Origin: Gallionellaceae bacterium | GTDB lineage: Bacteria; Pseudomonadota; Gammaproteobacteria; Burkholderiales; Gallionellaceae | DNA: 64,000 nt | NCBI GenBank assembly: GCA_019753125.1 | Contig: JAIELH010000001.1 | Location: forward strand, 1-64,000 | Direction: 5' to 3' | Shown here: in pieces, positions 1,947 through 8,060 of the stretch | Layout: every line of letters starts with the position of its first letter | Numbering within the stretch: position 1 is the first letter of the stretch | Position numbers and translations under genes: made by a program | Notes under the pieces: model-generated | The model's database searches: none | What the model was told of the DNA's origin: nothing | The model's input: only the letters and a program-made list of their open reading frames with translations

Positions 1947-3035
1947 TCATGCTTGAGAATACTTCTCCAATGGCTTGGTGCGCCGCCAACATGCCCAAGC
2001 ATCGCCGCGCGTCAGCGATACACGACGGCCGCCATCTCCGCCCAGGATATCTGTCTGCAACTGCGCGATCCTTCCCGAGCGCAACGCTTGCCACAACGGT
2101 TGCGCATAGCCTGTTTCAAACCCCTGCAAAGCATCGCGCCAGGCGGCCAGATCGCCGCGCTGCAACGCCGCACGCAAACCGCTCCAGACCAGCAACTGCC
2201 TGCCATCAGAAGAAAATTCCCTCTCCCTCTGGGAGAGGGCTAGGGTGAGGGAGCCATTCCATTGCTCCGGCCACCCGGCAAACGGAATACCCGCAGCCGC
2301 AGCAAACATCTCGGCCAACACCTCATCCGAACTGGCACAGTCATAAGCTTTTTGCGGCAGCAAATTTTCTGTACAACCTCCCCCCCACAACCACACGCTG
2401 TTGACCGGCAGCTCGCCACGCGCCTCGCGGGCTTCATTCACCGGATGCGCAAACAACAGCATCTGGATCTCGTTGAACGACTGATGCCAGCGCATCGCCT
2501 CACCGCCCTTGGGCAGCAGGCCATGCACGTTGCGCCCGGCAACCTGCGACAGCGGCACAGTTTCAATGTTCGGTACCCTGTCGAGCTTCAGATACCAGCG
2601 TTGCGGGTGGGGCGCAAAAAATTCCATGCCCTGCCCGGCAAAGTGAAGGTTCAAACTGGCGCACATTTGCGCGGCCTCATCCGCGCTGATTGCCACATCC
2701 GGCAACAACACCAATTGCTCGCGCTGCAAACGCAAATGCACCGGGTCGGCACGCAGCCAGCAACCCTCCCCAAGCCCATCAAAGGCGGCAGAAATAGGCG
2801 CAATCGGCACGCTTGTTTGGCATGGCACGCCAAATAGTTCGCACAGCAAATTCTCCAGCGAGCCTCCCTCCCCCGTTCGTGCTGACCCTTCGACTGAGCT
2901 CAGGACTAAAGGCTTTGTCGAAGCACCGCGCGCCAGCATCTTTTCCAGCGCTGGCAAATGCAAATCCGCACACACCTCGGAAACAATATCTTTCGGCAGG
3001 AATAAATCGGTGATGACCAGATGGACGTTTTTCAT
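1947..3035 (-). CDS. RpfE/COG4255-like protein of unknown function
   Basis: The protein begins 'MKNVHLVITDLFLPKD', which I chose over the longer ORF start because it matches the usual N-terminus of this family. It resembles betaproteobacterial proteins variously labelled RpfE-like regulatory protein or archaeal-type phosphoglycerate mutase. No catalytic motif was verified and the function is unknown. Two stretches do not look like native protein: 'LVLSSVEGSARTGEGG' near residue 40 and 'LTLALSQREREF' near residue 265. Both are translations of dispersed palindromic DNA repeats inserted in frame. The gene is divergent from the WYL regulator at 3260. Confidence 0.65.
   Translation of the reverse strand: MKNVHLVITDLFLPKDIVSEVCADLHLPALEKMLARGASTKPLVLSSVEGSARTGEGGSLENLLCELFGVPCQTSVPIAPISAAFDGLGEGCWLRADPVHLRLQREQLVLLPDVAISADEAAQMCASLNLHFAGQGMEFFAPHPQRWYLKLDRVPNIETVPLSQVAGRNVHGLLPKGGEAMRWHQSFNEIQMLLFAHPVNEAREARGELPVNSVWLWGGGCTENLLPQKAYDCASSDEVLAEMFAAAAGIPFAGWPEQWNGSLTLALSQREREFSSDGRQLLVWSGLRAALQRGDLAAWRDALQGFETGYAQPLWQALRSGRIAQLQTDILGGDGGRRVSLTRGDAWACWRRTKPLEKYSQA
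2217..2254. repeat. Dispersed palindromic repeat inserted in a coding region
   Basis: The core forms a perfect hairpin, CCCTCTCCC-tct-GGGAGAGGG, at 2219-2239, followed by 'CTAGGGTGAGGGAG'. This sequence type is widespread in many bacterial genomes as an intergenic repeat. Here it is read through in frame as 'LTLALSQREREF'. Confidence 0.75.
2872..2926. repeat. Dispersed palindromic repeat inserted in a coding region
   Basis: It contains the arms CTTCGAC (2888-2894) and GTCGAAG (2917-2923) around 'TGAGCTCAGGACTAAAGG', a well-known repeat type of proteobacterial genomes. It is translated in frame as 'LVLSSVEGSARTGEG' within the RpfE-like gene. Confidence 0.75.
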
Positions 3036-3259
3036 GGCGGCGAGTTTAGCATTTGCGGAAACAGATGAATCACCAAACCAGATGCAGGCAGTGGCAGCGC
3101 CATTGTTCAAGTATTGTCGGCGCGCTCAAAAGGCGTATCCTCGCGTCTTGCTTTCCGAGAAGGAAAAACCCAGTGGGCGGCAAAGCCGTCGGGGCAATTA
3201 TGGTGTCTTGCTTGCCGGGGCTGACACAGCGGAAAATCAGCATGGGGGATTGAAAAATC

Positions 3260-5402: not shown

Positions 5403-8060
5403 ATGCCAAACATGCCAGCGCAACAAGGGGATACGATTTTCAAATACTGGGGCAAGGCCGACGATAAATATCCGGCTGAACCAAAGTGGCATCCGCTTGC
5501 CTATCACAGTCTAGATGTGGCAGCCGTTGCAGCAACTTGGTGGGATGCCAGCCCTACCATTCAACGCACCATCCTTTCAGCTTTCGGTTGTACGCCATTA
5601 CAGCAAAACCAATTGCGCGCTTGGATTCTACTTTTCACGGCCTTGCATGACCTTGGGAAATTCGATGTGCGATTCCAGCTAAAGGCACCGGATGCACTTG
5701 CCGCAGCATGGCGACCACTTGGCGAGGAAGACCACGGAATACAACCGCAAGAAATAACAAAATTCGATCATGGCTGGGCGGGCATGGCTTGGGCAAATCA
5801 GGAGTATCGGTCATGGCTGGAAGAACATGGCGATGTTGACCGCGAGATGTGGGAAAGGTGGAAACCTTGGCTTGCTGCCGTGACTGGGCATCATGGGGAT
5901 TTTTACGAAGCGACGAAAATTCATGCACCGGAGGCTGATGCCGCAATCGTCGCTCAAGACAGCGCTGCGCGCCACGCATTTGTGTCCGCACTGTCCGATA
6001 TTTTCCTCGCGCCCGCAGGGCTTGGCATCCATAACTTGCCCCCATTTACTTCGCCGAGCGCGCAATCATTGCTAGCTGGCTTCTGCTCCGTGTGCGACTG
6101 GATAGGCTCCAACACCGATGTGTTCGCATACCAAACGCCTGACACTGCATTAGCCGATTACTTTGCCGCGAGTGTGACTAAAGTCCAAGCTGGCGATGCG
6201 CTGCATCGCTTCGGCCTACTTTCAAAAGCGGCAAGCTACAAAGGTTTAAGCGCTTTGCTTGACTCTAAAGAATCTCCACGCGGTGTTCAGGTTCGAGTGG
6301 ATAGCTTGCCAACCGCGCCCGGCTTGACACTGATCGAAGCGCCGACAGGCAGCGGCAAAACCGAAGCAGCACTGGCTTACGCTTGGCGGTTACTGGATCA
6401 AGGCACTGCTGACTCAATCGTATTTGCTCTGCCAACACAAGCCACGGCCAACGCCATGCTTGTTCGTGCCGAGGAATTTGCGGTAAAAGTGTTTGGCGAT
6501 GCCAATGTGGTGCTCGCCCACGGCAAGCGTGACTTCAATGAGTCATTCCAGCGGCTGGTTGAATGCGGGCAACGGAAAACTTCACAAGGCAAAGAAGAAG
6601 CATCCGTCCAATGTGCTGCCTGGCTTGCAAACAGCCGCAAGCGTGTGTTTCTCGGTCAGATAGGTGTCTGCACCGTGGATCAGGTATTGCTGTCCGTGTT
6701 ACCTGTCAGGCACAAATTTGTGCGTGGTTTTGGTTTGAATAAATCCATACTCATTGTGGATGAAGTTCATGCTTACGACGCCTACATGCATGGCCTGCTC
6801 GGTGAAGTGTTGCGCCGACAGAAAGCCATCGGAGGCAGCGCTATTTTGTTGTCAGCTACGTTACCCGCCGGTGTGCGCGCCAAGCTGCTGGCCGCATGGG
6901 AATCCAACGGGGTGAATGATGCACCGTATCCTGCGCTGTGGCGCGCCACACAAGGTGCAGCGTCATGCATTACCGTACCCGACGAACATCGACCGGATCA
7001 GCGTGAGGTGATGACCGAATGCCTCAAACTCCCCGACGCATTTCCGAATGAAGAGGTGATTGGACGCATCATCGCCGCTGCCGAATCCGGCGCACGGGTG
7101 GCGGTAGTGATGAATTTGGTGGACGATGCCCAGCGGCTTGCCCGCTTGCTACGCCACGAAATCACAAACCGCACAATCACAATTGATGTGGACGTGTTCC
7201 ATGCGCGCTACCACTTCATAGACAGACAAGCAAAGGAAAAAGCCACGATTGCTTATTATGGCCGCAATGCCGCGCGCGATAAGGGGCGCATCATCGTTGC
7301 CACGCAAGTGATTGAGCAAAGCCTCGATCTGGATTTCGACTGGATGCTCACGCAAATCTGCCCGGTAGACTTGCTGTTCCAGCGACTGGGTCGCTTGCAT
7401 CGCCACCAACGCGAACATCGCCCCGCCGGATTCGAATTGCCCCGTTGCACGGTGCTGTCAGTAGAAGACGAAAACTATGGGCTACACAAACTCATTTATG
7501 GCAACACCCGCGTACTGTGGCGCACCGAGCTACTGCTTGCTGGCGCGGACAGGATTGTTTTTCCGGAGGCTTATAGGGATTGGATTGAGAGCGTCTATTC
7601 CGAACTTCCTTGGGATGATGAATCCGAAGATATCTACGGCGCTTATCGCGGATGGAAGCTAGTGCAGGAAATGCGAGAGACTGATGCCCTACAGCTCACT
7701 ACCATGACCGCCAGCCAGTTCCGCGATGAGGACGATAGAGTAGCCGCCCTGACTCGTGACGGTGAAATTAGCTTGACGGTTTTGCCTATTCAAACCGATG
7801 GTCGCCTGTTAAATGGACAAGTGTTAAGCGCATTAAACGAGCGTGATCTCGCGGAAACGCTTAACCTGCACGCTGTGCCTGCACCCGCCAGTTGGAAGAG
7901 CCGATTATTAAATTTCCGCCTTGAGAATGAAGGTGTTCTGGCGGGCTATCGACAAATGGAAATGAGCACTGACGGGCATGGAGGCTGGTCGGCAATGGAT
8001 GGGAAGTTTCGCTATTCGGAAGATTTCGGATTGGAGAGGGTTAACGATGAACCTGCTTAA
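5403..8060 (+). CDS. cas3: Cas3 HD nuclease-helicase (type I-E)
   Basis: Effector nuclease-helicase recruited by Cascade to unwind and degrade target DNA. The HD nuclease domain comes first, with H35, 'LHDLGKFD' at 81-88 and 'GHHGDF' near 165. The SF2 helicase has Walker A 'APTGSGKTEAAL' around 313, the DEVH box 'VDEVHAYDAY' around 452, 'LSATLP' around 484 and motif VI 'QRLGRLHRH' around 660. At 885 residues it matches full-length type I-E Cas3 with fused HD and helicase domains and no visible defect. The Shine-Dalgarno is weak; a second ATG three codons in is an alternative start. The stop overlaps the start of cse1 by 14 bases, so the two are co-translated. Confidence 0.96.
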   Translation: MPNMPAQQGDTIFKYWGKADDKYPAEPKWHPLAYHSLDVAAVAATWWDASPTIQRTILSAFGCTPLQQNQLRAWILLFTALHDLGKFDVRFQLKAPDALAAAWRPLGEEDHGIQPQEITKFDHGWAGMAWANQEYRSWLEEHGDVDREMWERWKPWLAAVTGHHGDFYEATKIHAPEADAAIVAQDSAARHAFVSALSDIFLAPAGLGIHNLPPFTSPSAQSLLAGFCSVCDWIGSNTDVFAYQTPDTALADYFAASVTKVQAGDALHRFGLLSKAASYKGLSALLDSKESPRGVQVRVDSLPTAPGLTLIEAPTGSGKTEAALAYAWRLLDQGTADSIVFALPTQATANAMLVRAEEFAVKVFGDANVVLAHGKRDFNESFQRLVECGQRKTSQGKEEASVQCAAWLANSRKRVFLGQIGVCTVDQVLLSVLPVRHKFVRGFGLNKSILIVDEVHAYDAYMHGLLGEVLRRQKAIGGSAILLSATLPAGVRAKLLAAWESNGVNDAPYPALWRATQGAASCITVPDEHRPDQREVMTECLKLPDAFPNEEVIGRIIAAAESGARVAVVMNLVDDAQRLARLLRHEITNRTITIDVDVFHARYHFIDRQAKEKATIAYYGRNAARDKGRIIVATQVIEQSLDLDFDWMLTQICPVDLLFQRLGRLHRHQREHRPAGFELPRCTVLSVEDENYGLHKLIYGNTRVLWRTELLLAGADRIVFPEAYRDWIESVYSELPWDDESEDIYGAYRGWKLVQEMRETDALQLTTMTASQFRDEDDRVAALTRDGEISLTVLPIQTDGRLLNGQVLSALNERDLAETLNLHAVPAPASWKSRLLNFRLENEGVLAGYRQMEMSTDGHGGWSAMDGKFRYSEDFGLERVNDEPA

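Follow-up and report, generated by a model that had tools for sequence, protein, structure and literature searches.

In the 64,000 nucleotides at positions 1 to 64,000 of contig JAIELH010000001.1 (GenBank assembly GCA_019753125.1, a Gallionellaceae bacterium), the whole stretch analysed here and termed the window, a minus-strand open reading frame (ORF; 1947–3035) encodes a phosphoglycerate-mutase-like ('RpfE-like') protein. Two non-autonomous palindromes, belonging to repeat families that we term E and B, have very probably been inserted into length-tolerant loops of this conserved and functional gene. An original prediction had proposed two unrelated palindromic repeats translated in frame in one gene, and both were found in this ORF; the range it gave, 2217–2926, spans just the stretch between the two elements and not the entire gene. 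Gene calls throughout are ORF-based, and an alternative TTG start at 3110 extends the host protein to 387 residues. The source is an iron-oxidising Gallionella bacterium, the named members of its genus being Gallionella and Candidatus Ferrigenium, and the comparison genomes are mostly metagenome assemblies; L and G numbers are our own labels for loci and genomes.

Aligning the host gene with 68 full or near-full orthologues, as the original prediction had suggested, revealed short native loops at both sites in most of them, with about 8 residues at site A (e.g. RSEILESV) and 5–7 at site B (e.g. RDEENGG), compared to 21 and 19 in the window gene. On this alignment the two segments are insertions relative to the orthologues, and the predicted gain of a dozen or more residues each holds as a net gain over the usual loops (~13 residues at site A and ~12 at site B). 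Among the orthologues the loops range in length from a few to ~37 residues, and different repeats fill the same loops (L065 at site B, L052 and L056 at site A). Further loops are lengthened in the orthologues L055, L065, L066, L067 and L084, relatives contain at least three repeat families within this gene, and three sister pairs differ by one insertion, namely L067/L084 (dS 0.115, site C), L045/L122 (dS 0.19, site B) and L052/L053 (dS 0.24, site A). Separately, an ~84-nt repeat family (GACACGTTACTGGCGAAGCCAGCCGATTGCGGGAGCAGCCGCC...), whose core is present in 13 of the 65 genus genomes, was observed in frame at two positions of the host gene, after GGGC in L065 and L067 and after GLGGG in L066.

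Both segments belong to multi-copy families of the genus, and in the host gene they keep the frame and occupy loops. Complete Gallionella copies of the E1 repeat share a layout of 51 nt, CCGTTCGTGCTGACC-CTTCGAC...GTCGAAG, which the window copy at site A fits. As the word CTTCGAC is by itself no rarity in this window (11 matches, 6.65 expected), E1 was established through its repeat family instead: the E1 half-pattern matched 81 times, in 30 of the 65 genus genomes, whereas the control gave 2 matches. E2 (CTTCGACAGGCTCAGGGCGAACGG), a sister unit of only 24 nt, is present in 52 of the 65, and because the two differ by 27 nt, swapping one for the other preserves the frame. Across the genus, E copies are mixed, genic and extragenic. 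For site B, the arm word CCCTCTCCC occurs only twice in the window, in both arms of the repeat, with 0.15 occurrences expected and two reached in 1 of 100 shuffles. The proposed search for both repeats elsewhere in the genome succeeded for B, whose 21-nt core yielded six matches without mismatch and four with one in the source genome, the window copy included; the E1 half-pattern at up to 3 mismatches occurred in the source genome (assembly 88% complete) in the window copy alone, its further copies residing in other genomes of the genus. An exact 15-mer count on 426 kb of the source genome returned mainly CRISPR repeats and missed the palindromes because these are too varied.

The host gene is conserved and under purifying selection. 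It is present in 138 of 150 genomes of the family with a frame that is open in nearly all orthologues, and the median ratio of nonsynonymous to synonymous substitution rates (dN/dS) was 0.18 for 74 close pairs, compared pairwise over core columns. The AlphaFold model of the window protein was obtained with a predicted local distance difference test score (pLDDT) of 88 and a predicted template modelling score (pTM) of 0.87. In the model of L126, an orthologue without inserts, sites A and B each form a loop linking conserved strands or helices, with site B between two strands, and the window protein model keeps the same secondary structure elements with the inserted loops as its low-confidence parts: pLDDT was ~53 for the site A loop, falling below 50 for residues 47–56, and ~60–68 for the site B loop. 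Since the sites are loops in models with and without inserts and dN/dS is low, these results support two tolerant loops in a gene that is not relaxed as a whole. Of the two explanations offered by the original prediction, tolerant loops thus agree with the models and the variable loop lengths, whereas a general relaxation of the gene is not supported.

In-frame capture of palindromes is, on the sequence comparisons, a genome-wide habit, shared by many housekeeping genes across the genus. Allowing up to 2 mismatches, we counted ~28 B loci in the source genome, a number that hangs on one search pattern and would shift with another; most of them lie in long ORFs, and ~20 fall in an open-frame ORF of a recognisable family. 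In 13 genes Pfam matches flank or enclose the B repeat (ABC-F-type ATPase, ThiC, UvrD, glycine dehydrogenase subunit 2, DinG-like helicase, DNA polymerase I, a TPS-domain protein, MoeA, a TrmA/RlmD-like methyltransferase, RecQ, RecJ, a P-type ATPase and an amine oxidase); genes in which the element precedes the first Pfam match (e.g. phosphomannomutase, L019), where the start codon is possibly annotated too early, were kept out of this number. Several further genes of the source genome contain two repeat copies (L007, L008, L024, L025, L026 and L030), so that, together with the relatives harbouring three or more families in the host gene, a double capture is not unusual in this genus, contrary to what had been supposed.

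Within genes, B repeats occur in both orientations and several reading frames, arguing against selection for a single peptide. The UvrD loop following RWLKLLAG has B-type peptides in differing frames (PSPQPSP, PLPNPLP) in 5 of 30 relatives, the source genome counted, and other inserts in two more. At the MoeA loop, two genomes have a B unit, one has a B unit nested in another B unit, and two have a GATGRAAC-type unit nested in B. Loops of the host gene and of many housekeeping genes hold differing repeats in differing species of the genus.

The GATGRAAC-type unit is an element of ~61 nt (GATGGAACNACTAGCC...GGTTATC, also GATGGAACNACTAGCCATTCNACTAGGC...GGTTATC); it matched 30 and 39 times in two relatives and 9 times in the source genome. 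In the copies inspected it is often located inside B-type (CCCTC-type) palindromes, including the one at site B of the host gene in L066, and it may target the hairpin loops of other repeats.

Turning to the host protein itself, its match to NCBIfam apgM/PRK04200 was weak (E 2e-13, 50 bits) and did not reach the equivalog cut-offs of 320–446, a Pfam search assigned no family, and a sequence search of the PDB returned nothing useful. The nearest PDB folds to the model were 3idd, a Thermoplasma enzyme, and 2zkt. Xanthomonas RpfE and apgM are what we take to be its nearest named proteins. Given the weak apgM matches and these folds, 'RpfE-like' is a reasonable name; the likeness to the cofactor-independent phosphoglycerate mutase apgM consists of the best fold and profile matches, whereas the scores far below the equivalog cut-offs point to a related fold only, leaving mutase activity putative. 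In one genome (G108) the complete host gene is accompanied, at a distance of 1.5 kb, by a second copy that is only partial. Repeats (GTGTTCCCCACGCACGTGGGGATGAACC) of the kind that makes up type I-E CRISPR arrays are also present in the sampled part of the source genome. The features and their coordinates are collected in Table 1.

Table 1 Positions of the host gene, its loops and repeats, and further loci discussed in the text
Feature	Position	Strand	Details
Host gene, phosphoglycerate-mutase-like ('RpfE-like')	1947–3035	minus	362 residues from ATG; ORF-based
Site A loop, residues 38–58 (ASTKPLVLSSVEGSARTGEGG)	2862–2924	minus	Orthologue alignment; 21 residues, ~8 insert-free
E1 palindromic repeat, complete 51-nt unit	2873–2923	minus	Arms CTTCGAC/GTCGAAG at 2888–2894 and 2917–2923
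Site B loop, residues 260–278 (NGSLTLALSQREREFSSDG)	2202–2258	minus	Orthologue alignment; 19 residues, 5–7 in most orthologues
B-type palindromic repeat CCCTCACCCTAGCCCTCTCCCAGAGGGAGAGGG, a CCCTCTCCC/GGGAGAGGG repeat	2219–2251	minus	Arms 2219–2227 and 2231–2239
UvrD locus, length-variable loop after RWLKLLAG	L004: 40–2376	minus	
UvrD loci of the genus, same loop	L202–L231		
MoeA palindrome-in-palindrome loop	L292–L296, L303		All in frame
~61-nt element	L066: 1944	plus	
~61-nt element	L065: 1300	minus	
~61-nt element	L235: 9388	minus	
~61-nt element	L246: 6047	plus	
Repeat types in Gallionella genomes			E, B and GATGGAAC-type
Partial host-gene copy	G108:C47:33354-33614		Residues 49–135; E1-type repeat at edge
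Helicase-like ORF, reads as Cas3 protein	5403–8060	plus	

We propose that the palindromes insert widely across the genome, that copies breaking the frame or the fold would be lost, and that stop-free, frame-preserving copies in loops would be retained by selection, the added peptides being mostly neutral passengers. As E1, E2 and B each lack stop codons in 3–5 of 6 frames, they would have better odds of persisting.

The phylogenetic distribution at the two sites bears on how often insertion occurred. B units are present at site B in L035 (the window gene), L036, L045, L058 and L066, and in a decayed state in L051–L053 and L063. Approximately unbiased (AU) tests on gene trees reject these carriers as a single clade (p = 0.002 for L035/L036/L066, 8e-6 for all five), so that one insertion passed on vertically does not suffice; repeated insertion and short-tract exchange between species are both possible sources of the pattern. 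At site A, an E1- or E2-derived loop is found in all 16 species of the window clade, in some strongly decayed, and outside this clade E units occur in L046, L055, L047 and L062, and in L068 as a decayed, E1-like loop that can still be recognised from its protein sequence.

Several observations weigh against repeated insertion of mobile palindromes. The B carriers have common flanking residues (QWN.SLTLAL..SQRERGF), which, as far as sequence goes, fit short-tract exchange as well as repeated insertion. Every E unit at site A shares one orientation and frame across ~20 species, an AU test did not reject L046 and L055 as a clade (p = 0.19), and the site A pattern, including the presence of E in all 16 clade species, may largely be one old insertion. 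In addition, 30 Y1_Tnp loci showed no clear E repeat nearby and a clear B repeat in one only (L280), near the locus end.

A single ancestral insertion per site, made patchy by short-tract exchange between co-occurring species, is the strongest alternative, although we consider it rather unlikely. The non-rejected L046 and L055 clade and the E and B flanks common to species distant on the tree speak for it. However, the same loops hold different families, as in L065 at site B and L052 at site A, and nested insertions need several events anyway. It is improbable that the added loops were co-opted, with functional peptides maintained by selection: the constancy of frame at site A, extending to the decayed yet recognisable loop of L068, would be in line with this, but the insert is missing from close relatives, the same UvrD and MoeA loops take inserts of different frames and families, and the site A unit shows no greater conservation than the remaining gene when all 16 clade members are considered. 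Here, identity at third codon positions was an ordinary 0.658 versus 0.673; an apparent excess (0.886 versus 0.685) arose in 11 rows picked by their match to the consensus, and a refreshing of the site A unit by concerted evolution was dropped as a selection effect. A decaying host gene, with the insertions marking a pseudogene, is very improbable, as the fragmentary or stop-containing orthologues of G114, G027 and G136 are opposed by the dN/dS of close pairs, which largely refutes it, by the open frames and the wide presence of the gene, and by the same inserts in UvrD, PolA and ThiC. Finally, native coding sequence that is palindromic by chance would explain the retained frame but is refuted by identical nucleotide sequences recurring elsewhere, inside and outside genes, and by the insert-free majority of orthologues, and no orthologues were found to encode the same residues from unrelated codons.

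Comparison with known systems points to the Rickettsia palindromic elements (RPEs), fused in frame in conserved genes (Ogata 2000, 2002, as reviewed in PMC10969869 and PMC2229807). RPEs are likewise non-autonomous palindromes residing in frame in unrelated conserved genes and tolerated by the proteins. The Gallionella repeats similarly form in-frame palindromes in genes that lack them in relatives and occur in several unrelated host genes (the ~20 B genes of the source genome, 13 with Pfam matches flanking or around the repeat). The differences are that RPEs are rickettsial units of ~105–150 nt, whereas the units here measure 24, 33, 51 and 61 nt and belong to several unrelated families of a free-living betaproteobacterium, reuse the same loops across species and nest in one another. 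The Gallionella palindromes thus work in the manner of RPEs without being members, and belong to the known kind of the intragenic repetitive extragenic palindrome (REP) or RPE.

REPs tagged GTAG or CGTC also occur inside ORFs, many of which encode repair proteins such as UvrD/Rep helicase and DNA polymerase I, with some ORFs hit twice (Di Nocera 2013, PMC3733652), and in recB two Xanthomonas species have REPs at roughly the same position (PMC3733652), resembling the loop reuse described here. By inspection, however, GTAG is absent from the E1, E2 and B consensus and CGTC is present in some E variants only. These REPs are found mostly between genes, whereas most examined B copies lie in open frames. 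GTAG REPs also flank genes of REP-associated tyrosine transposases (RAYTs). A Y1_Tnp gene scored above cut-off in 34 of 41 genus genomes, but with no convincing flanking E or B repeats at the 30 loci inspected, a RAYT was rejected as the mover of the palindromes. Our search of the open-licence literature for Gallionella palindromes retrieved nothing relevant, and we did not find reported there the genus as host, the E and B families, the location of most B copies in open frames, or the filling of the same loops, across species, by several families.

Rickettsia is the best-known source of protein-coding palindromes, and they have also been described, as intragenic REPs, in a few other bacteria. 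We tentatively suggest that Gallionella may host stacked mobile palindromes, including the ~61-nt element that inserts into others, which repeatedly lengthen the same protein loops in frame, such that housekeeping proteins would form a running record of loop insertions and the copies of one family would survive mostly within genes. With its many species, sister pairs of low divergence and loops repeatedly hit by different families, this free-living genus provides a natural experiment that may show which loops tolerate random peptides and whether proteins can be lengthened harmlessly by mobile DNA, and gene annotation and protein trees in the Gallionella group should anticipate such inserts.
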